From Bacteroidota bacterium (GTDB taxonomy: Bacteria; Bacteroidota; Ignavibacteria; Kryptoniales; JAKASW01), in assembly GCA_021825585.1 (NCBI GenBank), contig JAKAGT010000017.1, positions 1 to 64,000 on the forward strand: a stretch of DNA of 64,000 bases. Direction: 5' to 3'. The notes below the pieces were generated by a model. The model saw only the letters and a list, made by a program, of their open reading frames with translations, ran no database searches and had not been told where the DNA came from. The first letter of the stretch is position 1. Every line of letters starts with the position of its first letter. Below, in pieces: positions 4,664 to 16,300 of the stretch. The translations under genes were made by a program, and so were the position numbers.

Positions 4664-4708
4664 ACAGGGGGGTGTGATCCCGTAAGTCGCACCTCCCTTG
4701 TTTTTTTA
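4664..4708 (+). terminator. Intrinsic terminator after the T9SS-domain gene
   Basis: A GC-rich stem (AGGGGGGTGTGA against TCGCACCTCCCT) is followed directly by seven T residues at 4701-4707. It ends plus-strand transcription at the convergent junction with the response-regulator gene, whose stop codon lies within it. Confidence 0.75.
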
Positions 4709-5086
4709 TTTACCCAGCGCCCGATTAATCGAAGTCAGGATATCGTCGAGATCATAGGGCTTGCTTACGAAGTCCGAGGCGCCGAGACGAAGCGATTCTA
4801 TAGCGTTCTTCACATCGGCGTAGGCCGTCAGCATAATCACCTTAGTCTCGGGCACCTTCCCCTTGACAAACTTCAACACTTCAAACCCGTCCACCTTAGG
4901 CATCTTTATGTCCAACAAAACCACGTCAAACCTGTCGCCCTGCTCGCTCCTCGCCCGGACTAATTCGATTGCCTCGTCACCGTCTCCCGCGCTCTGGACT
5001 TCAAAGGCTTCCGCCTCCAGCTCACTGGCGAGGAGGAACCTGAGTGCCTCCTCGTCGTCAACGACCAGAACTTTCGGTTTCGACAT
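4706..5086 (-). CDS. Stand-alone response regulator receiver (CheY-like)
   Basis: A 126-residue single REC domain. The acidic pair D10/D11, the phospho-acceptor D59 in 'VVLLDIKMPKVDG', T87 in 'MLTA' and K109 in 'SKPYD' are all in place, so it should accept phosphate. There is no output domain. It is the last gene of the minus-strand pilus operon, 9 bases after the secretin gene. By analogy with PilG/PilH and CheY proteins it may tune pilus motor activity; the partner kinase is not in the window, and this role is inferred from position. Confidence 0.93.
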   Translation of the reverse strand: MSKPKVLVVDDEEALRFLLASELEAEAFEVQSAGDGDEAIELVRARSEQGDRFDVVLLDIKMPKVDGFEVLKFVKGKVPETKVIMLTAYADVKNAIESLRLGASDFVSKPYDLDDILTSINRALGK

Positions 5087-5095
5087 TAAGTCTTC

Positions 5096-6367
5096 TCACT
5101 TTCCATTTTGTGGGTCATATTGCTTTATGCGCTTTTCCAGATTCTGCAGTTCCTGCTCCAGCGACCTAGTCGGTTGTGGCCCCCTGGTCTCAAGCGCCTC
5201 AAATCTCTGCCTCAAAGTCGGAAGAATCTTAGCCTTTATGACTATTATCAGCTCCTTGGTCTGCACGGTAATCTGGTCTGACCCTGTCAGGTACCTGAGG
5301 CCCAAAACCCACCATGGAAGGTCCTTAAGAACGGGAATCCCTTCTCTGTGTGTAGTTTGTGTTGAGCTGTAGAGTCCTCCTATTGTAGTCTGCTCACCGT
5401 TCAAAAGCAAGACTTTTGTGTTTGCCTGCTCGGTGTTTATGATCGTGCCGGCTGCGCTGTTGCCGCCCAAGGAGCTGTTCGTAAGGTTAAGATTAAGGCT
5501 GACGTAGTCTATGCTGTCCTGACTGTAGACCGTCGGTGTAGCGTCAACAATGATACCGGTATTCTGCATTTGCTGGACTGAATTTCCCGCAAAATCTCTC
5601 GTCGTCACGAAGAAATTCACGCCTACCTGGATGTGACCGATTTCTCCCGACCTGACCGTTATTTCAGGGCTGGCAAGAATCTTTCCGAGATCTTCCGACT
5701 CCAGAAGACCGAAGATAGCTCCAAGACTCCCGAACGAAAAATCATGTTGACCGCTGACCGTAAAATCACCCGACGTCGGCGCGTTTATCCCGACATTCGA
5801 AGGCGCCGTACCGATCCCGGATGGGAGGTTGCTCTGCGGTATGCTCGTTATTCCGTGCCAGGTATTCGAAATGAGGAAGTTTATGTTGATCCCGTGCGAA
5901 TTGAGTTTTGTAAGATCTGCCTCAAAGAATATCGCTTCGATATTGACTTCCCTCGAACTCAGAGTCGGGGTACCGGGTGGCAAAGGCGCTGCTTTTTCTT
6001 CTCCCTTAACAATTACCTGCTGTGCACTGGGCACAATCTGGATATAACTCTCGTATTCTTTATACCACAGGTTGTTTGACCGCAGTATAGTTTCGAGAGC
6101 ATCGAGCCACTGCATCCTGTCGATATCTACTCCGATAGGCGTACTCCTGTTTTCAGGATCTACTATTATCTTGTTGAGAAATTTGCGGCTGTAGCTGTCC
6201 AGGATAGTCAGTGCCTGGTTAAATGGAGTGCTCGATGTAATGGTAACCATCTGGGCTGGTGTAACATACTGGTGCCTGAGTTCCGGAGGTGCAGAATTGA
6301 TTTGTGCACTCGCTTCCATCGTACAAATCGAGGCAACAGCGAAAAACATTATCAGCTTTTTCATCAT
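5096..6367 (-). CDS. pilQ: Type IV pilus secretin (PilQ-like, short form)
   Basis: A 423-residue outer-membrane secretin. A signal peptide ends near 'MEASAQ' (residue ~22). An STN/N0-like module follows (residues ~45-110, 'ALTILDSYSRKFLNKIIVD'), then the secretin domain, with 'VNIEAIFFEAD' near 145 and the signature 'GEQTTIGGLYSS...REGIPVLKDLPW' near 325-355. The C-terminal end is a predicted helix rich in E and K. It is far shorter than proteobacterial PilQ (~700 residues) because no AMIN domains are present, so outer-membrane targeting must work differently. It lies downstream of the PilO/P gene in the pilus operon. Confidence 0.9.
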   Translation of the reverse strand: MMKKLIMFFAVASICTMEASAQINSAPPELRHQYVTPAQMVTITSSTPFNQALTILDSYSRKFLNKIIVDPENRSTPIGVDIDRMQWLDALETILRSNNLWYKEYESYIQIVPSAQQVIVKGEEKAAPLPPGTPTLSSREVNIEAIFFEADLTKLNSHGININFLISNTWHGITSIPQSNLPSGIGTAPSNVGINAPTSGDFTVSGQHDFSFGSLGAIFGLLESEDLGKILASPEITVRSGEIGHIQVGVNFFVTTRDFAGNSVQQMQNTGIIVDATPTVYSQDSIDYVSLNLNLTNSSLGGNSAAGTIINTEQANTKVLLLNGEQTTIGGLYSSTQTTHREGIPVLKDLPWWVLGLRYLTGSDQITVQTKELIIVIKAKILPTLRQRFEALETRGPQPTRSLEQELQNLEKRIKQYDPQNGK

Positions 6368-6376
6368 AATCCTCTT

Positions 6377-7261
6377 CTATTTTCCAAATCTGACTTTCAA
6401 AACGACGCGATCGACAATTCCGCCTTTGTTAAGTGTAAACTCCGCTTCATTCTTGCCGGGATCGATCTTCGTCAGGTAACCGAGATATACTTCATCTCCG
6501 ACTCTTAGAATATGACCGACGCCTTTCTGGTCTACGATGAATACCTTGTCTCCCATTACGGCCCTGAGATCCGAACGCTCGACATCGACCAACCCAAGGA
6601 CATTGGCCGGGGGTTCACTGGAAATCAGGGGCTTGAAGTAATTCAGCCCAATGGAAACGTTCTTGTACAACGTTGGATCCTCCCCGCTTTGTCCGGCCGA
6701 GAGCCCGGCAACAGTAGAATAGTATGCGTGAAGTTCCATCGTAAACGGCACGACGGTCTGCGGCCTGTCCGAGGTCTGGTCGCGTACCTCGAGTCCCGAC
6801 AGGGTGAGATCCCCTACCTTATACATCAGCTTTGCATGTTCGAGATACCAGATAAACCTGAAAAGATTGTCGTAAGATGTCTCGCCTTTGAGGTTGTAAA
6901 GGTTGTAGCCGTACTGTTTGAAGCTTCTCGCTCCCTGATAGAGCATGTCGAATTTCACGAAGCCGCTCGCGTCCATGATCCTATTCAGGTAGGCGTAGGT
7001 CAAAGCCGTAGTGTCGTTGCTCGGAATGACTTTAAACCTTTTTGAATATTTTTCCTTCATGCTCACAAGTTGCTGCTCCGACTCCTTCAGTTCGCTTTCT
7101 ACTGCCGGGCGTTCGCCGATGGTCTTGTCAAGCGATGCTACCTGCGTCCTCAGCTGCCGCTCCTCTTTCGGCTGCGATACTTTGGTCAGATAGAAGCCCG
7201 CCCCAAAAATGACGACCAGAAATGCCGCCAGAACTACTGTATTTCTCAGTGCGTAAGACAT
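6377..7261 (-). CDS. PilO-PilP fusion, pilus alignment subcomplex
   Basis: A 294-residue inner-membrane protein. One transmembrane helix (residues 8-25) is followed by a coiled coil (~30-75) and a ferredoxin-like PilO domain (~80-185, 'NLFRFIWYLEHAKLMYKVGDL'). After a linker, residues ~212-294 resemble the PilP beta-domain, with 'VLGLVDVERSDLRAVMGDKVFIV', 'GVGHILRVGDEVYLGYL' and a C-terminal 'VLKVRF'. PilP normally is a separate lipoprotein that ties the PilNO complex to the secretin; here it appears fused and no separate pilP exists. PilO assignment is firm from context; the PilP part is by pattern only. Confidence 0.8.
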   Translation of the reverse strand: MSYALRNTVVLAAFLVVIFGAGFYLTKVSQPKEERQLRTQVASLDKTIGERPAVESELKESEQQLVSMKEKYSKRFKVIPSNDTTALTYAYLNRIMDASGFVKFDMLYQGARSFKQYGYNLYNLKGETSYDNLFRFIWYLEHAKLMYKVGDLTLSGLEVRDQTSDRPQTVVPFTMELHAYYSTVAGLSAGQSGEDPTLYKNVSIGLNYFKPLISSEPPANVLGLVDVERSDLRAVMGDKVFIVDQKGVGHILRVGDEVYLGYLTKIDPGKNEAEFTLNKGGIVDRVVLKVRFGK

Positions 7262-7272
7262 TGGTCAAATCC

Positions 7273-8799
7273 TCACTTTCCTGCGTACCTAAGATCAATC
7301 TGGAACTCATACACGGTTTTGCCGCGAATGTCGGCTACATCCACCTTTCTGAGAATTGACCCCGGATAGCTCTGCGCGAACCGTGGTATCCTGTTTCTGT
7401 ATACTGAAAATCCGCCGATCGAATAAGTGTCTTTGTTAATTTGATGGACGTTAGTGAGCCACATATTACCTACTCTGTATACCGTGCGCGAAAGCGAACT
7501 CATGAGGCTCGACCATCTCTCTGTGTTCGGGGTCAACGAGTCCAGAAGAGCCGTTGCCGTGGAATACTTGGCGAACTGACCGCGCACATTCACGATCTGG
7601 GCGCGGAGCGCATTTATCTGCGCGACCTGGATTTTCTTGTTCGCAATCTCCGAATTGACAGCCCTGATGCGGCTTTCATTAGCGGCATAGTTATAGGAAA
7701 AGTAGAAGGTCGAAGCAAACACTACCACGGTCAGCGCAAGACCATGCCAGGCAAGCTTGAATATCTTCTGGCTCTCAAGAATGTTATCCGGGGTCAGGTC
7801 GGCAATATAGTAATCCTTCGACTTCTTGTTGACGGCGCGCAAAGCGCTCGCAATCGGTATGGCAAATTGCGGGATAAGGTCGGCTCCGCCTGCCGGTAGC
7901 CTGGAGACGTCGACCTGCCTGAGCTGGAGATAGTCAACCTCGGCGCCGACCAGGAGCGACGAAAGGAAACCCTTGATGTCGAAATTCTTGCACTCGCCGC
8001 AAAGGATAACTTTGTCTATCCGCGGAAGGCTCAGGTTATCCTGCCCGAGGAGTATTCTGCTGTATATCGTGTTCTGAACGCTAAGCGAGTCGGCACCCTC
8101 GCTGATGAGCGGGGCAATATTGAAGAGATTTCTCCCGCGCATGAAAATCAGACGGGTATACTCTACGCCGACGTACACTATTACAGTGACCTCACTCCCC
8201 TTCAACGTGTAGTTGTTTTTGATAAGGTTGACAAGGGATATATCGCTGCTTTCGACGAAAGAAATCTTCGGCATTTTCGACCCGAGGAAGGGCCGGGCAC
8301 TCATTACAAGGTCCAGAACCGGAATCTCCCGCTCCCTGATGACACCGACGAAGCTGGATTCGGAAGTCGTCGAAAGAAGCTTGACCCGCTCCTTCGTGAT
8401 GCCCGATCGTGTGGCCTGAAGCTCCTCGACGATTCTCTTTACTATCCTGTCGTAATTCTGCTTTTCCTGAACCTCGATGGGATGATAGAAGACGTAGGGT
8501 TCTCCGATCGACAGCGCCAGCACATTTTTCTTCTTCCCGTACCTGTTGAACAGTTCAGTCATGACCGAGGCGTTTGTCTCGGCGGCAGAAGTCTCGGTGA
8601 GCTCGGGTTGAGTGATATCGATAGGTTCTGTTGCGGAATCAAAGCCCCCCGCGGTCATTGAGGCCGCAACTTCCAGTTTCTGAAAGAGCCTTGAGCTGTG
8701 TAGATCGAGAAGCGAGACCCTGGAACCGTGCCGGGATACCTGAGCAACCTTCATCTCGACTCCGTCCGCATAAAGTCCTAGGGCATTATTAGAGGCCAT
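7273..8799 (-). CDS. PilM-PilN fusion protein
   Basis: A 508-residue protein. Residues 1 to ~340 form a PilM-type actin-like ATPase fold ('ALGLYADGVEMKVAQV' at the start, 'EVTVIVYVGVEYTRLIFMRG' near 203-222, 'IDKVILCGEC' near 261-270). A single transmembrane helix (~352-370) and a coiled coil (~373-405) follow, then a PilN-like periplasmic domain ('LLDSLTPNTERWSSLMSSL'). PilM and PilN are normally two proteins, with the PilN cytoplasmic N-terminus docking into PilM; here they are one chain. It is upstream of the PilO/P gene, separated by 11 bases. Confidence 0.85.
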   Translation of the reverse strand: MASNNALGLYADGVEMKVAQVSRHGSRVSLLDLHSSRLFQKLEVAASMTAGGFDSATEPIDITQPELTETSAAETNASVMTELFNRYGKKKNVLALSIGEPYVFYHPIEVQEKQNYDRIVKRIVEELQATRSGITKERVKLLSTTSESSFVGVIREREIPVLDLVMSARPFLGSKMPKISFVESSDISLVNLIKNNYTLKGSEVTVIVYVGVEYTRLIFMRGRNLFNIAPLISEGADSLSVQNTIYSRILLGQDNLSLPRIDKVILCGECKNFDIKGFLSSLLVGAEVDYLQLRQVDVSRLPAGGADLIPQFAIPIASALRAVNKKSKDYYIADLTPDNILESQKIFKLAWHGLALTVVVFASTFYFSYNYAANESRIRAVNSEIANKKIQVAQINALRAQIVNVRGQFAKYSTATALLDSLTPNTERWSSLMSSLSRTVYRVGNMWLTNVHQINKDTYSIGGFSVYRNRIPRFAQSYPGSILRKVDVADIRGKTVYEFQIDLRYAGK

Positions 8800-8897: not shown

Positions 8898-10154
8898 CTA
8901 TAATGCGGGGCGAACACCGGCAGACAGGAGCTGCTCCATCCTGCGCTTGTTGTTCGCATAATTGACCGCGTTCTCCTTCGAAATCTTTCGCTGCATGTAA
9001 AGACGCCTTAAATCCTGCTCCATCGTGTTCATTCCGAGCTCAGCACCCTCTTGAATCATCTGGTATATCTCACCGGTATTCTTGTTCTTGATGGCCGCCT
9101 TCACCGATGGACTCGCAATGAGTACCTCCTTTGCAAGGACCCGCTTTCCGTCCAGGCTCGGCACAAGCTTCTGCGATACGACGCACTGCAAGACGTCGCC
9201 CAGACGCTGCCATACTCGTTCCTGCTCCACGGGAGGAACTTCGGCGACGATCCTGTCGATGCTCTCGACCGCAGACGCCGTGTGAAGGGTTGAAAACACC
9301 TTATGTCCGCTGTCTGTAATCTCCAGGGCCGTCATGATGGTATCCGGATCGCGCATTTCCGCAATCATCACGATGTCAGGGTCCTGTCTCAGCGCCTCTA
9401 CTGCGCCGTCCTTAAAAGACAACGTGTCCCTGCCAACTTCGCGGTGACGTACAATACACTTATCGGATTTATGAACGTACTCAATAGGGGAGCCGATAAT
9501 CGCTATGTGTCCATCGACGGTGTGATTGTTCATATCTATGATGGAATCCAGGGTCGAGCTCTTTCCTGATCCGGTTATGCCCGTAATCAGGATGAGTCCC
9601 GCCTTGGTATGCGCCAGACTCAAAACGTTAAGTACGCTCTGATGAAACGTAAGTTCCCCTATGTGGCGAACCTGTTCGTTTATTGCACGCATGTTCAACG
9701 CTACTTCCTCCAGATCGAGGTATGCATCGGCACGGAACCGAAACATTTTGCCGTCGTCTTCGACGCTATAGGAGAAATCCAGATTGCGCCGGTCGTACAG
9801 GAACTGCCGTTGCCTGTCGCTGAGGATATTCTGAACCATGATGCTTGACTCGTCGGGGGTAAAGGTCCCCCATGAATCATCCGCACGCTTCAGGCCGAAT
9901 ATCCTGTACCACACTTTCCCCTGAGCTCCGAACCCGCCGAAGTCGATATCGGACGCGCTGTTTTCATGCATCCTCAACAACAGTGCGTCGAATGCCAACT
10001 TCAGGAAACGGCGCTGGTCGTCCGGGAGATTGGAGACCATGTTCCCGATAAAAATGTGTCTTTCCAATCCACGGACAAGATCGGACACTTGTGCTGCCAG
10101 TTGCTTCAGAGTATTCTTAGTTTCCGCAATTTCCGCGTTGACTGCCGTGTCCAT
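8898..10154 (-). CDS. PilT-like pilus retraction/secretion ATPase with variant motifs
   Basis: A 418-residue hexameric secretion ATPase. Walker A GITGSGKSS lies at residues 192-200, Walker B 'DPDIVMIAEMRD' at 258-269 and the His box 'STLHTASA' at 288-295. Length and the missing tetracysteine motif point to PilT rather than PilB. Two canonical spots differ: the Asp box, usually EDPIEY, reads GSPIEY (221-226), and the Walker B Gly before EMRD is Ala. The N-terminal ~150 residues are diverged and predicted helical at the start. The start ATG follows the stop of a small ORF by one base (TGAAATG), which suggests translational coupling. Confidence 0.88.
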   Translation of the reverse strand: MDTAVNAEIAETKNTLKQLAAQVSDLVRGLERHIFIGNMVSNLPDDQRRFLKLAFDALLLRMHENSASDIDFGGFGAQGKVWYRIFGLKRADDSWGTFTPDESSIMVQNILSDRQRQFLYDRRNLDFSYSVEDDGKMFRFRADAYLDLEEVALNMRAINEQVRHIGELTFHQSVLNVLSLAHTKAGLILITGITGSGKSSTLDSIIDMNNHTVDGHIAIIGSPIEYVHKSDKCIVRHREVGRDTLSFKDGAVEALRQDPDIVMIAEMRDPDTIMTALEITDSGHKVFSTLHTASAVESIDRIVAEVPPVEQERVWQRLGDVLQCVVSQKLVPSLDGKRVLAKEVLIASPSVKAAIKNKNTGEIYQMIQEGAELGMNTMEQDLRRLYMQRKISKENAVNYANNKRRMEQLLSAGVRPAL

Positions 10155-10587: not shown

Positions 10588-12387
10588 TTATTCTTCTGTC
10601 GTCGTGGCTGCGACTTCTTCCATTGTCGATATGCCTTCCAGGATGCGATTGATGCCCGCTCGTCGTAGTGTCCACATACCATCCTTCAATGCCTGTTCTC
10701 TAATATCGTCTTCGTTGATGTTCTCTCCGGCGTTCAGAATGATATGCTTAATCTCCTTCGTGAAGTACAGCGCCTCATGAATCGCAGCCCTTCCCTTGTA
10801 CCCGGTGTTGTTGCATTTATCGCAACCCACGGCCTTGTAGATTGTGTGATTACGCAACTCCTCTTCCTTGAAACCGAACCTCAGATAAGCTTCTCTGTCT
10901 AATTCTTCATCCGTCATCGGCTTCTTGCAATTGCTGCAGAGCGTGCGAACAAGACGCTGTGCAACGATAATATTAACCGCGCTTGAGAGAAGGAAAGGCT
11001 CGATTCCCATTTTGTACAGCCTTGCCACCGCGCTCGGCGCATCGTTGGTATGCAACGTGGAAAATGTGAGGTGACCTGTGTTAGCAAGCTTAACCGCGAT
11101 CTCCGCCGTCTCCCTGTCTCTGATTTCGCCGACGAGAACGATATCGGGATCATGCCTCAGAATCGACCTTATAGCCTGCTCAAAATTCATCTTCGGTCCG
11201 ATCCTCAGCTGCCTGGCGCCGTGGATTATGTATTCGACGGGATCCTCGACAGTCAGGACGTTGACGGTGGGATCTATTACCTGATGAAGGGCTGCCACGA
11301 GGGTCGTCGATTTTCCACTTCCGGTGGGACCGGTCAGTATCACCATCCCCTGGGGCCTCTTTATGGCCTTGAAAAACCCTTCCTTTGCGGGGCCCTGAAG
11401 CCCGAGCTTCTCCAGGTCCGTTATTACTTTCCGGTCGTCAAGGATACGGATGACGATGGTTTCAAACTTGTGCCTGAATTCACTCGCGACCATCGGCAGA
11501 ATAGAAACTCGGAATCTTATCCAGTGGTCGTCTATCTTCCGCTGCATGAAGGCGTCCTGGCCAGCCTCGCGCTCAAATCTGTCCGCGCCTTTCGATCTGT
11601 CCTTTATGACCGCCGAGATCGCCTCGGGCAGTACCCCTTCCTGTGTATACCATAATCTCAGGTCGCCGTCGATACGAAAGTGAATATCTGTTTTCCCGCC
11701 GTCTTTCGGTACAACGTGTACATCGCTGGCACCCTTTCGAACTGCTTCGACCAGCATGCCCTCGATGAGATTGATGAGGACGCTCTTGCTAATTTCAGCT
11801 TCAAGCTGCTGCTCGTCCAGCCCTTCCTCTTCACCCGCGCTGCCGATGTCACCGAGCTCGTCCTTCGAAGTATTGGCCAGAACCTTCAGGAACTCATTCT
11901 CAGGCGGGAATACTTTGTCGATCAGTCCCTGGAGGTCCTTCAGCCGTACGTAGGCTACTTCGTACCTTTTTGCCATGAAACTTCTGGCAAGTCTGGGGAT
12001 TTGTTTGTTTGTCGGATCGGCGGCGACTACAACAAGTTTGTCGGGCCGTGCCTCGTCGAATTTGAGGGGGAGCATCTTTGCGTTTATGATCTCCTCACGC
12101 AGGCCATCGCCGGATTCCACAAGTTTCTTGATGAAATCAATGCGGCCCGCGTCGACCACCTCATCGGTAAGATAAATTTCCCGGAAGCCGTACAGGTTGG
12201 CCACTTCCTTGAACACAAGGTCGTGCTCGACATAGAAATCGGAGACAAGAATCTGTGCCAGTGTTCGGCGAATCTTCGGATCCTCGGCTTCCTTTCTCTT
12301 TATTGCCTGCTCGAGGGTCTCGTAATCTATGATGCCCTTCTTGAGAAGCGTATAGCCTAGTTTGTCGCTTATATCTATCTCAGGCAT
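10588..12387 (-). CDS. pilB: Type IV pilus assembly ATPase PilB
   Basis: A 599-residue GspE/PilB-family extension ATPase that powers pilin addition at the inner membrane. Residues 1-160 form a MshEN-like N-terminal domain. Walker A GPTGSGKSTT is at 353-362, the Asp box EDPVEY at 381-386, Walker B 'DPDIVLVGEIRD' at 413-424 and the His box 'TFSTLHTND' at 441-449. A zinc-type tetracysteine is complete: C484, C487, C522, C525. All key residues are present, so it is expected to be active. Its start overlaps the end of the DUF559 gene by 8 bases. Confidence 0.95.
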   Translation of the reverse strand: MPEIDISDKLGYTLLKKGIIDYETLEQAIKRKEAEDPKIRRTLAQILVSDFYVEHDLVFKEVANLYGFREIYLTDEVVDAGRIDFIKKLVESGDGLREEIINAKMLPLKFDEARPDKLVVVAADPTNKQIPRLARSFMAKRYEVAYVRLKDLQGLIDKVFPPENEFLKVLANTSKDELGDIGSAGEEEGLDEQQLEAEISKSVLINLIEGMLVEAVRKGASDVHVVPKDGGKTDIHFRIDGDLRLWYTQEGVLPEAISAVIKDRSKGADRFEREAGQDAFMQRKIDDHWIRFRVSILPMVASEFRHKFETIVIRILDDRKVITDLEKLGLQGPAKEGFFKAIKRPQGMVILTGPTGSGKSTTLVAALHQVIDPTVNVLTVEDPVEYIIHGARQLRIGPKMNFEQAIRSILRHDPDIVLVGEIRDRETAEIAVKLANTGHLTFSTLHTNDAPSAVARLYKMGIEPFLLSSAVNIIVAQRLVRTLCSNCKKPMTDEELDREAYLRFGFKEEELRNHTIYKAVGCDKCNNTGYKGRAAIHEALYFTKEIKHIILNAGENINEDDIREQALKDGMWTLRRAGINRILEGISTMEEVAATTTEE

Positions 12388-12790
12388 GGGAATTCCTCAA
12401 ATCCCCCCTGCCCCCCCTTTGAAAAAGGGGGGAAGGGGGAATTTCTAAACTATCATAAATCCTCTCGAGAACTGCAGCAGTCTCCGCCATCACCTGTCTT
12501 GAGGAGAAGTGAAGGATCCGCAGGCCACATGATTCAAGATAAGCGTCCCTGATCCTGTCCTTCTGAATCCCTTCCGTAGTGTAATGCTGGGAGCCGTCAA
12601 CTTCGATAACTAGCTTCGCTTTGGCACAATAGAAATCCACAATGTAGTTGCCGATTGTTTTCTGCCTATAGAACTGATAGCCTAGTAACTGCTTTCTCCG
12701 CAGTTTTGCCCAAAGGAATCGTTCTGAATCCGTCATGTTGTTCCGAAGAGCGCGCGAAGTTCCTTTGAGTTTTCCGTTGTACCAGATCAT
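12380..12790 (-). CDS. DUF559 (Vsr-like fold) endonuclease-related protein
   Basis: A 136-residue DUF559 protein. The fold is related to very-short-patch-repair endonucleases. Visible family features are 'LWAKLRRKQLLGYQFYRQ' (~27-44), 'IGNYIVDFYC' with the metal-site Asp (~47-56), 'KLVIEVDGSQH' (~60-70) and 'GLRILHF' (~90-96). The C-terminal ~20 residues ('PPSPLFQRGGRGD') are encoded by a G-run hairpin repeat of a kind also found upstream of the gene. The gene interrupts the pilus operon between pilC and pilB. Biochemical role unknown; DUF559 genes with such repeats are scattered in many genomes and may be mobile. Confidence 0.85.
   Translation of the reverse strand: MIWYNGKLKGTSRALRNNMTDSERFLWAKLRRKQLLGYQFYRQKTIGNYIVDFYCAKAKLVIEVDGSQHYTTEGIQKDRIRDAYLESCGLRILHFSSRQVMAETAAVLERIYDSLEIPPSPLFQRGGRGDLRNSHA
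12399..12444. repeat. G-run hairpin repeat, copy 1 (3' end of DUF559 gene)
   Basis: An inverted repeat with arms like AAATCCCCCCTGCCCCCC and GGGGGGAAGGGGGA, separated by a short AAAA loop. Near-identical arms recur at 12821-12857 and 13031-13055, so the DUF559 gene lies between two copies. Confidence 0.75.
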
Positions 12791-12820
12791 TGGATTAATA
12801 CCAGCCTAGTGAATGGCTCT

Positions 12821-13055
12821 AAATCCCCCCTGCCCCCCCTTTTAAGAAAAGGGGGGAGTGCACAAGACAACCCTACCTCTTCCCTCAAGCCTTTATCACC
12901 CGATGTGGCAAATCCTTGTGTCCACATTCCCCCATTTCCAAAACGGCGGAGTGCACAAGACAACCCTACCTCTTCCCTCAAGCCTTTATCACCCGATGTG
13001 GCAAATCCTTGTGTCCACATTCCCCCATTTCCAAAAGGGGGGCCAGGGGGGATTT
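12821..13055. repeat. G-run hairpins plus two 89-bp direct repeats
   Basis: Between the DUF559 gene and pilC lies a repeat block. 12821-12857 and 13031-13055 are G-run arms like the copy at 12399. Between them 12855-12943 and 12948-13036 are direct repeats of 89 bases with a period of 93 that look identical by eye (both start GGAGTGCACAAGACAACC and end CCATTTCCAAAA). Frames across it encode proline/glycine-rich junk peptides and are not genes. Two units of this length are not a CRISPR. Confidence 0.9.
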
Positions 13056-13087
13056 CAAAAGAACTCTCTGTGCTCCTCATTCACTCC

Positions 13088-14428
13088 TCACATTGTCGAT
13101 GGATTCCTGGGACTGATCATCGCCGTCTCCGATGAGACGACCGTCAACGCTATCATGACGATCATGATGATCATGGAAATAATTACCTGAATGAAATCGA
13201 TCGCGTTCTTGAGCTTGTAGCCGGTTTCTTTTTCGTAATAATTCGCCAATTGCAGCGCTGAGTGTCTGACCGTACCGGTCTCGGCCCCGCTGTGGAAGCG
13301 GGAAATAGCAGTTTCAGTGAAAACATTGGTTGCGGCAAGGGATTCGGTCAGGCCTTTGCCCTGTGTGACCATCATCGGAATTGCGACATTTTTGATCTGA
13401 TACTCCATATACTTATTGCCGCACGCCTCTGAAGCAAGCCTGATGACATCTATATTTTCCCCTGAGCCGCTGTACATCGCATAGAAAACCCTGCAGAATA
13501 TCTCTATGCTTGTCTTGTGAAGCAGGCTCCCGATAGCCGGCACCTTCATCATGTACTTATCAAGAAGGAATCTTCCCTTCTTTGTCGATATAAAACGCGC
13601 CAGGAAAATGCCGCCGGCCACGAACACCATCGACAACCACCAGAGATTCTCCGTTACCAGATGGCTGAGCTTCAAAGTAGCCTCAGTCATCGGGGGTACC
13701 TGCCCAAGTTTGGCGAAGAGCTCCGCAGTAGCCGGGAATATGTACCCGACGTAATAAATAACAGCTATGAACAGGACAAACAGAGTAACCATGGGCATTA
13801 TCAGGGCACTCTTGAGACTCTTCTTGAATTCGGCTTGCCGCTCCAGGAACTTCGCGGTGCTTTCGTAAATTTCAGCCATATTGCCGCTTTTTGAAGCGAG
13901 CCCCAACATGTGGGCCGTAAATTTGCCGAAGATTTTTTCATGCTTGAGAAACGCCTGTTCGCTGTCCTTCCCCTGCTTGAGATCGTTATTGATCTCTCTC
14001 ACCGAGTCCCGGAGAGTCTTGTTTTCAATGTCGTTGGTCAGCAGCTGAAGGATTTCGTTGAAGGGCAGCTTCTCGCGGAGCAAATCGGCACTGACACGAA
14101 CGAAGGTTACCACTTCCGTAGCAGGGGGTTTTGGCTTGAAATCTATGAGCTTCTTCTGAACAGATATGACTTTATAGTCGAGGCGCTGAAGAGCTTGCTG
14201 AACCTCTTCCTTGGTAAAGGCCTTCTGTTCGCCTCTGACCGGCTTCTCGCCGTTCCGTCTTACTCTGTAAACAAATGTAGCCCGCGTCCTGAGACCGGTG
14301 AGTTTGAACTGATTCTTTTGGGATATCTCGGTGACAATTTTCTTTGCCTGTGCGCGCGTCTCGGCAGACACAACTCCCTGGACACTTCTTCCGCCGGGCC
14401 TCAACCCTTGAAATCTAAATTCCGGCAA
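13088..14428 (-). CDS. pilC: Type IV pilus inner-membrane platform protein PilC
   Basis: A 446-residue protein of the GspF/PilC family, the membrane platform on which PilB and PilT act. Two T2SF domains are visible (~105-230 and ~310-430), with three transmembrane helices near 210-230 ('MPMVTLFVLFIAVIYYVGY'), 268-285 and 410-435. The N-terminal ~100 residues carry a repeated small domain ('AKKIVTEISQKNQFKLTGL', 'VQQALQRLDYKVISVQ'). The start is TTG at 14428, chosen because GAGGAGG sits nine bases upstream. It is the first gene of the pilus operon. Confidence 0.93.
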   Translation of the reverse strand: MPEFRFQGLRPGGRSVQGVVSAETRAQAKKIVTEISQKNQFKLTGLRTRATFVYRVRRNGEKPVRGEQKAFTKEEVQQALQRLDYKVISVQKKLIDFKPKPPATEVVTFVRVSADLLREKLPFNEILQLLTNDIENKTLRDSVREINNDLKQGKDSEQAFLKHEKIFGKFTAHMLGLASKSGNMAEIYESTAKFLERQAEFKKSLKSALIMPMVTLFVLFIAVIYYVGYIFPATAELFAKLGQVPPMTEATLKLSHLVTENLWWLSMVFVAGGIFLARFISTKKGRFLLDKYMMKVPAIGSLLHKTSIEIFCRVFYAMYSGSGENIDVIRLASEACGNKYMEYQIKNVAIPMMVTQGKGLTESLAATNVFTETAISRFHSGAETGTVRHSALQLANYYEKETGYKLKNAIDFIQVIISMIIMIVMIALTVVSSETAMISPRNPSTM

Positions 14429-15750: not shown

Positions 15751-16206
15751 TTAGTTAAGCACTGTTGTGGTTGCACCGTTCTGCGTAACCTTTATGACGG
15801 CTTCTGTCTTATGCGTTGCATTGCCGTCGTTCCCAACCTCCGTACCAAGACCTACTATATAAAGAGAGTCAAGAGCTGTTCCGACCGTTCCTATTACGCC
15901 ACCAGTGGTTCCAGGGTAAGTCGTGTAAGCTGTCGGTTGCGTAGCCGTTGCCCAGTAGACCCCGTTAGCATCCGAACTGTCGGCGGGCGAAAGGCTGAAA
16001 CCACCGAAGCTCTGTCCACCACCGGCCATTGCTGTCGGTTTGCGATAATACTGTTGAGCCTTTGCCGCAAGGTTGTTCAGATCATTTATAACCTGGTCCC
16101 GGTTCGAGCTTTGCGCATTGCTCTTGAACATTGATATACCAACCGCTATGGCGATACCGACGATGATCACGCCAAGAACAATAAGTAGAAGTTGTTGCTG
16201 TCCCAT
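15751..16206 (-). CDS. Type IV pilin-like protein, atypical N-terminus
   Basis: A 151-residue protein with one hydrophobic N-terminal helix (residues 6-26, 'LLLIVLGVIIVGIAIAVGI'), an amphipathic extension ('DQVINDLNNLAAKAQQYYRKP', as in pilin alpha1) and a small Gly/Thr-rich globular part (residues ~60-151). It looks like a major pilin by size, architecture and location near the pilus operon. The classical class III prepilin cut site (G|FxxxE) is absent: the sequence begins M-G-Q-Q-Q-L-L-L, without Glu at +5. It has its own promoter and a very strong AAGGAGG site, consistent with high expression. Confidence 0.8.
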   Translation of the reverse strand: MGQQQLLLIVLGVIIVGIAIAVGISMFKSNAQSSNRDQVINDLNNLAAKAQQYYRKPTAMAGGGQSFGGFSLSPADSSDANGVYWATATQPTAYTTYPGTTGGVIGTVGTALDSLYIVGLGTEVGNDGNATHKTEAVIKVTQNGATTTVLN

Positions 16207-16270
16207 TTTAACCTCCTTTTAATTGTTGGGGACGTTTGAAGAAGACTCTAAAAACGCCTTGCCACGACGG

Positions 16271-16300
16271 AATATAAACGGCATTTATCAAGAAAGTCAA
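16271..16300 (-). promoter_or_regulatory. Candidate promoter of the pilin gene
   Basis: Minus-strand TTGACT (16295-16300), 18-base spacer, TATATT (16271-16276), about 65 bases before the pilin ATG. The hexamers are the same as those before the rRNA operon. Confidence 0.6.

Follow-up and report, generated by a model that had tools for sequence, protein, structure and literature searches.

The assembly of type IV filaments is taken to begin with the cutting of a leader peptide by a prepilin peptidase, and it is by this leader that pilins are recognised. In the excerpted text of one survey, prepilin leaders are described as hydrophilic, 6-26 residues long and ending in Gly, with Glu5 needed in homopolymers and a peptidase found in every prepilin-bearing phylum except Nanoarchaeota (PMC4471445). 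As far as the extracts of two further papers go, the so-called type II secretion system of Bacteroidetes forms a branch of its own, with a divergent major pilin (PMC6668835), and a Geobacter-PilA-like pilin is present in one Ignavibacteriales genome (PMC7399161), so that classical pilins do occur in the latter group. A genome in which pilB, pilC and pilQ are present and pilA and pilD absent has also been described (PMC3534657). Partial texts on families other than the one considered here mention a prepilin peptidase for every Fibrobacteres genome tabulated (PMC4704652) and the harmful effect of an unprocessed classical prepilin in a cyanobacterium (PMC8546353). Among the papers listed in searches of the open-access literature, one of the listings showing 20 of 350 entries, we recognised no description of leaderless type IV pilins and found no report of a filament, N-terminus or mutant of an MGQQQ protein, the family described below.

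The locus compared here with these systems lies in a window of 64,000 nucleotides (the whole stretch of DNA analysed) from a bacterium of the phylum Bacteroidota. A pilin candidate of 151 residues is followed downstream, on the same strand, by pilC, a DUF559 gene, pilB, pilT, a pilM-like gene, a gene in the pilN/pilO place, a secretin gene and a response regulator gene:

16271..16300, minus strand: promoter-like site, TTGACT-18-TATATT, 10/12, consensus match only
16219..16221, minus strand: in-frame stop, the fifth codon upstream of the pilin ATG (sequence)
16212..16218, minus strand: Shine-Dalgarno sequence AAGGAGG, 5 nt 5' of the ATG (sequence)
15751..16206, minus strand: leaderless major pilin candidate of the MGQQQ family, 151 aa (relatives, AlphaFold2, VIA-align)
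13088..14428, minus strand: PilC/GspF inner-membrane platform protein (PF00482, 3e-32; NF052607 PilC, 6e-42, below its cut-off; PilC tree)
12380..12790, minus strand: DUF559 gene between pilB and pilC (PF04480, 8.8e-36)
10588..12387, minus strand: PilB extension ATPase (PF00437, 4.3e-106; TIGR02538, 5e-135, below its cut-off)
8898..10154, minus strand: PilT-family retraction ATPase (TIGR01420, 8.7e-96, 321.1 bits versus a cut-off of 319.1)
7273..8799, minus strand: PilM-like protein (NF045709 Amuc_1101 PilM-like, 3.9e-4, far below cut-off; conserved place in the operon)
6377..7261, minus strand: PilN/PilO-position protein, named by place only; conserved
5096..6367, minus strand: secretin of PilQ/GspD type (PF00263, 8.7e-28; GspD, 1.1e-22, and PilQ, 2.4e-22, both below cut-offs)
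4706..5086, minus strand: response regulator at the operon end (PF00072, 2.6e-30; same place in three same-genus operons)

The pilus operon that the first-pass annotation had placed near the gene is real, with pilC, pilB, pilT, pilM-like and secretin genes assigned by profile matches, and PilB, PilC, PilT and a secretin, the combination that serves as the criterion for type IVa, are found together in this one locus. The 6377-7261 protein has no Pfam, PilN or PilO match in a profile search. The DUF559 gene is absent from three same-genus operons examined and is probably an insertion, not a part of the machine; the same segment (12380-13080) also holds frames with repeated peptide stretches that are not seen in those three operons. 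In the window copy of the operon, pilB and pilT are not separated by a block of minor pilins, and no multi-pass frame resembling a peptidase lies next to the operon.

The reading frame of the candidate pilin proved exact in coordinates, strand and start. It opens with ATG GGA CAG CAA CAA and encodes a protein beginning MGQQQLLLIVLGVIIVGIAIAVGISMF..., which is named by no Pfam or NCBIfam family in a profile search. The in-frame stop at the fifth upstream codon makes a longer or classical leader impossible. A leader could consist of Met-Gly at most, as opposed to a hydrophilic one of 6-26 residues, and both the aromatic residue at +1 and Glu5, the latter usual in bacterial pilins, are missing, which confirms the original observation that the gene lacks a G|FxxxE processing site. 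The ribosome site, described as strong, is indeed so (AAGGAGG, 5 nt from the ATG), in contrast to the promoter, which had been called strong as well and is modest: the sigma-70-like site at 16271-16300 agrees with 10 of 12 consensus positions, where shuffles average 0.5.

The same start is found throughout the family. Counts that include loci from a genome collection (start codons, upstream starts, charge and a 64-member alignment) lean to MGQQQLLL, because this was one of the six patterns in the scan behind those loci; with that limit, the first codon in 153 unique relatives is ATG in 132, TTG in 12, GTG in 8 and ATA in 1, an upstream in-frame start codon is absent in 148 of the 153, positions 1-24 contain a single Lys5 as their sole charged residue and no acidic residue, and M1, G2, Q3, Q4, Q5, L7 and L8 are invariant in the 64 aligned members. 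Among the inner codons of the relatives, TTG makes up 15% of Leu codons and GTG 17% of Val codons, and the chance of 12/12 Leu as TTG together with 8/8 Val as GTG, were position 1 internal, is approximately 6e-17. Judged from these codons, position 1 of the MGQQQ family is truly the initiator, and a misannotated start codon is ruled out by the upstream stop, the start-codon pattern and the 148 of 153 relatives without an upstream start.

Of 395 genomes from the phylum, 129 contain a relative of the protein at E<=1e-3, far beyond chance, although these genomes are related and the counts are not independent events; 128 of the 129 also contain PF00482 (pilC). The conservation of MGQQQ, which the first-pass annotation had proposed to check in related genomes, is therefore borne out both by this spread and by the 64-member alignment. 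In the genome collection, relatives were found in 459 stretches, and the titles of the best 80 of these include Kryptonia, Ignavibacteria, Melioribacter, Calditrichota, KSB1, Gemmatimonadetes, a few ‘Deltaproteobacteria’ bins and others. Members that begin with MGS, MGT or MGN exist outside the 64-member alignment. Gly2 is present in 153/153 rows, a figure conditioned on a pattern that requires Gly; 5 of 180 matches fall outside the Gly pattern, comprising one cut by a contig edge, two MGNQQ, one MGQQQLF and one with an unclear start.

Some family members lie on contigs other than that of the operon. Three further sequences (G259:C7, C19 and G039:C38; L183-L185) share 96-100% identity with the first 43-47 residues of the window protein and end at contig ends. 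A repeated, near-identical N-terminal half combined with divergent C-terminal halves seems to break assemblies here; one of these genomes, G259, has nine family matches, and a pilin diversification system is possible.

The pilin architecture that had been attributed to the protein is supported by its predicted fold as well as by its operon. An AlphaFold2 model built from the 64-member alignment (pLDDT 88.5, pTM 0.79) consists of a helix spanning residues 2-55 and four strands; this is the pilin arrangement of a long N-terminal helix on a C-terminal antiparallel sheet, as seen in the predicted model only. With Foldseek by itself, no match reached E<=0.001. When the Foldseek candidates were realigned with VIA-align 2, the top eight were all type IV pilins, with Z from 8.4 to 4.7 (4d40, 8.4; PilV, 8.0; PilE, 8.0; PilX, 6.6; FimA, 6.2; two PilA fusions, 5.6 and 5.2; TTHA1218, 4.7), and the ninth row had a Z of 3.9. 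When the window protein was compared by sequence with solved structures, no match was significant (a porin is best at E 0.079; a Geobacter geopilin has 0.16), and Pfam ComP_DUS matches 9 of the 64 members (best 1e-4), the window protein itself having no match. By its modelled structure, the protein is a type IV pilin. Furthermore, in several of these alignments residue n of the model aligns with residue n-3 of the matched chain (PilV, 28 on 25; PilE, 30 on 27; PilX, 31 on 28; FimA, 4 on 1), which suggests that the N-terminus of the protein falls close to that of a mature pilin, provided that the entries are numbered from the mature residue. The register places residue 4 near classical residue 1 in most structural alignments, while the Asp of a minor protein described below points to residue 2.

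The order of the window operon recurs in relatives. In 13 fetched regions and the window, within the reach of each region, one to three copies of the MGQ gene are followed by pilC, pilB, pilT, pilM, pilN/O and the secretin gene, with the MGQ copies directly 5' of pilC and up to three of them in tandem; L143 is the sole fetched region without an MGQ gene (within its 12 kb). Five operons (L144, L146, L148, L149 and L150) have, in the pilB-pilT gap, single-helix proteins with an MG.. or similar start directly before the helix. In L145, minor-pilin-like proteins are found on the other strand. The genome from which the window comes (G000) has a trio of leaderless single-helix proteins at each of two loci (C24 and C77). 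The finding is consequently broader than was first supposed, in that it is system-wide, with the minor-pilin-like proteins leaderless too.

Homologues of the three proteins of the G000 trio number 34, 31 and 22 frames in the searched loci, a few of these being the same place fetched twice. Measured from the earliest start to the most hydrophobic 19 residues, rather than to a helix boundary, and in frames with an upstream start codon, the distance is <=5 residues in 27 of 32 first minors, <=9 in 29 of 31 second minors and <=5 in 15 of 17 third minors. The model of the first minor (pLDDT 86.5) resembles minor pseudopilins: its top six VIA-align matches, with Z from 8.2 to 7.0, are chains of type II minor-pseudopilin complexes (XcpGHIJK, XcpV/W, GspK-I-J, XcpVWX and EpsI/J), which we take, from chain letters and size, to be GspI subunits. 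Row seven (Z 5.8) is a protein other than a pilin, which makes the gap less clean than that of the major pilin, and Foldseek alone was uninformative for this model too.

Of 30 distinct rows of the second minor, 20 carry an Asp at residue 6 with Met as the first and 5 at residue 8, with none placed in the other 5; counted after Met, its position is close to that of classical Glu5. One of 11 second minors matched NCBIfam PRK10557, ‘prepilin peptidase-dependent protein’, at 4.1e-5 (below cut-off; residues 5-66 on profile 14-75), with no match in the other ten, and as a link to pilins this sequence match is no more than suggestive. For the major and the first minor families, NCBIfam was of no use. 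The third minor is long, with a sub-threshold DUF4900 match in two members; GspK, for its part, is not known to carry Glu5. The trio may correspond one-to-one to GspI, GspJ and GspK.

Other proteins were observed in the same places. In L148 (13477-17221), three tandem similar proteins with MGRGLM or MGRGLI starts, in frames of 358-382 aa, lie in the pilB-pilT gap, where they occupy the place of the large third minor and have no match to the third minor of G000 at 1e-3. Similar soluble proteins of 170-174 aa lie in the pilB-pilT gap of L143 (5023-5532) and L147 (7837-8358), and a similar frame is found among the minor proteins of L148 and L149; these could be a regulatory component of the pilus system.

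The prepilin peptidase, which it had been suggested should be identified, is undetectable in most MGQQQ genomes of the phylum sample. PF01478 (A24) is found in 52 of the 395 genomes, PF00482 in 181 and the N_methyl motif (PF07963) in 33, and a detectable A24 peptidase is rare in this phylum. Within the 129 MGQQQ genomes, 16 contain PF01478, 18 contain N_methyl and 110 contain PF00482 with neither; PF01478 is thus undetected in 113. The peptidase follows the classical motif, occurring in 16 of the 18 MGQQQ genomes with N_methyl versus 0 of the 111 without. The 110 include 12 single-contig genomes (G003, G030, G073, G112, G124, G132, G179, G188, G191, G236, G294 and G302) that have MGQQQ and PF00482 without PF01478.

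Detection of A24 is imperfect, as PF01478 goes unmatched in 14 of the 33 genomes with the classical motif. A phylum-specific profile, built from 20 A24 proteins and run on all 113 negative genomes, yielded no full-length candidate and one partial match at E<=1e-3, while 19 of the 113 have some match at E<=0.1; the partial match (G119; 1.8e-4, profile positions 51-139 of 257, in a 506-aa frame) was rejected since it covers about a third of the profile. The same profile rescued 5 of 13 control genomes, so that its sensitivity is limited. In seven control genomes with classical pilins there is no A24-like gene beside pilC, which makes this control weaker than hoped; the sole other frame there with >=3 hydrophobic stretches, of 180 aa in L136, has no A24-profile match. 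These genomes (G021, G103, G142, G206, G289, G261 and G363; L136-L142) come from other families and combine pilC and classical N_methyl pilins with no A24 found; their enzyme may be highly divergent, or the peptidase may have been lost a second time.

A second sample comprised 50 genomes behind the collection loci (50 of 75 first chosen, their completeness unstated). PF01478 is present in 17 of them and has no match in 33; ten of the 17 carry Calditrichota or KSB1 titles, and A24 is present in 10 of the 11 Calditrichota/KSB1 genomes tested, L045 being the exception. Two close relatives, L037 and L038, have A24, and the closest, L036, is without it. Also without PF01478 are both genomes titled Melioribacter roseus (L063 and L094), three Kryptonia (L051, L054 and L055) and two records titled ‘chromosome’ (L067 and L110). 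M. roseus is a cultured member of the group, and its two records here are MAGs that carry the gene. In some phyla, therefore, leaderless pilins and a peptidase are found together, and in Bacteroidota such pilins mostly occur without one.

G000 has two A24 genes, on contigs C13 and C54, three classical pilin-motif matches (two on C13, one on C54), separate pilC-like genes on C13 and C34, and a second MGQ protein on contig C75. The first-pass annotation had named a classical major pilin gene elsewhere, together with no filament containing this protein, as what would count against its reading; pilin-like genes do exist on C13 and C54, with A24, whereas A24 and the classical motif are both missing from the draw's three genomes of the same genus, which do contain MGQQQ and PF00482. 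The classical pilC-like genes on C13 and C34 (L157:10498-18525 and L158:646-7197) lie near huge frames of 2676 and 2184 aa with starts that by eye resemble signal peptides, and dedicated secretion of giant surface proteins is possible.

In a maximum-likelihood tree of 43 PilC sequences, all from this phylum, 22 MGQ-type and 21 classical sequences are separated by one branch with 100/100 support, and the MGQ-type pilC genes are one clade. Seven of the 22 MGQ labels (L175-L179, L181 and L182) were assigned to the other pilC copy or to a chosen extra row, not by an adjacent MGQQQ gene, and L143, also labelled MGQ, has no adjacent MGQQQ gene in its fetched region. Some long branches on the classical side were flagged by the program. 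Both kinds of PilC, one or more each, are found in G000, G019, G065, G143, G297 and G364.

Taken together, these observations make it probable that the locus encodes a variant type IV pilus, with its major pilin encoded at 15751-16206, in which pilins are made without a cleavable leader and without an A24 step. Translation would begin at, or within about three residues of, the first residue of a classical mature pilin, and the protein would enter the membrane via its N-terminal hydrophobic helix, from which PilC and PilB would hand it into the filament; insertion by the first helix, extraction by PilC/PilB and packing in the filament are what the fold and the operon suggest. N-terminal processing would amount to Met removal at most, leaving the A24 prepilin peptidase unneeded. 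The specificity of methionine aminopeptidase favours Met removal before Gly, and for the window pilin this removal is likely because Gly follows Met. The uncharged QQQ run, at the cytoplasmic face, may replace the contact between Glu5 and the N-terminus by neutralising or capping the latter, and the three leaderless minors (GspI/GspJ/GspK-like), present in many members, may form the tip and start assembly. Several observations run against the leaderless reading: Gly2 is near invariant, as a prepilin peptidase site would also need; the N-terminus is without positive charge to fix its topology; A24 is present in G000 (two genes), in the L037 and L038 genomes and in 10 of 11 Calditrichota/KSB1 genomes; and the imperfect detection of A24, the Foldseek result without a match and the Geobacter-PilA-like pilin of one Ignavibacteriales genome (PMC7399161) count on the same side.

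The first of these observations could also be explained by an unrecognised or very divergent prepilin peptidase that cuts after Gly2, with Gln3, perhaps as pyroglutamate, as mature residue 1. Gly2 is invariant in all 64 aligned members (and in 153/153 rows under the Gly-requiring pattern), and since these profiles detect no A24 in some genomes that have classical pilins, such an enzyme can be missed. We nevertheless consider such an enzyme unlikely. No conserved multi-pass gene that could serve as a replacement was found in the 13 fetched operon regions and the window, PF01478 is present in 0/111 MGQQQ genomes without the classical motif, and the 12 single-contig genomes have none. In addition, the minor proteins share no common Gly at position 2. 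A two-residue leader would also be far below the 6-26 residues of the survey, although its excerpted text notes that leaders are shortened in some systems (PMC4471445).

That the pilin is served by the A24 enzyme of another system, as proposed for MSHA pili, is very improbable as a general explanation: the A24 genes of G000 on C13 and C54 and those in 17 of the 50 collection genomes would allow it, and MSH loci, all without a peptidase, may borrow one according to the extract available (PMC6668835), but none was detected to borrow in 113 of the 129 MGQQQ phylum genomes, including the three of the same genus, which contradicts sharing for most of the phylum sample unless A24 was missed. It is equally doubtful that the protein is a membrane-anchored accessory of the pilus machine instead of a filament subunit. 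The members off the operon's contig would permit such a role; against it stand the fold predicted for the protein, the position immediately ahead of pilC with as many as three tandem copies, the strong ribosome site and the lack of an N_methyl pilin in 111 of the 129 genomes.

The observation made in the first-pass annotation was hence right, and its interpretation as a pilin largely right. Beyond the single locus, and with slightly less assurance than for the pilus itself, we regard it as likely that Bacteroidota and their neighbours (Calditrichota, KSB1 and Gemmatimonadetes bins) possess a separate lineage of type IV pili whose major and minor pilins are leaderless. In much of Bacteroidota the peptidase would have been discarded or never used, a Gln-rich cap would handle membrane extraction and the N-terminal charge, and the peptidase, where present, would serve classical pilins. 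Were this true, leader cleavage, supposedly universal, might be dispensable in a large bacterial group, the roles of Glu5 and N-methylation would become testable by natural deletion, and the missing pilin would be supplied for many environmental bacteria. It would also explain a genome with pilB, pilC and pilQ and without pilA or pilD (PMC3534657), of which the MGQQQ family would be the missing pilA.

MSHA prepilins have leaders, and MSHA genomes hold the peptidase of another system, which distinguishes them from the present case; the likeness lies in loci without a prepilin peptidase of their own, as stated in the extract of PMC6668835. The Nanoarchaeota type IV pilin systems are alike in that prepilins are present with no peptidase detected (PMC4471445, in excerpt) and differ in being archaeal, with proteins that are still recognised as prepilins. 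Compared with the GspI/GspJ/GspK tip of the type II secretion pseudopilus, there are likewise three minors here, the last being the largest, of which the first matches GspI/J-type minor-pseudopilin complexes and the second keeps an acidic residue close to the N-terminus; in contrast to that tip, all three start directly before the helix, often without a detectable peptidase partner. The likeness to the type IVa pilus lies in an operon with PilB, PilT, PilC, a PilM-like protein and a secretin and in a predicted pilin fold. The difference is that the major pilin here is without a leader, an aromatic residue at +1 and Glu5, that A24 is undetected in 113 of 129 genomes, and that MGQ-type and classical pilC fall into different clades in a tree of this one phylum.
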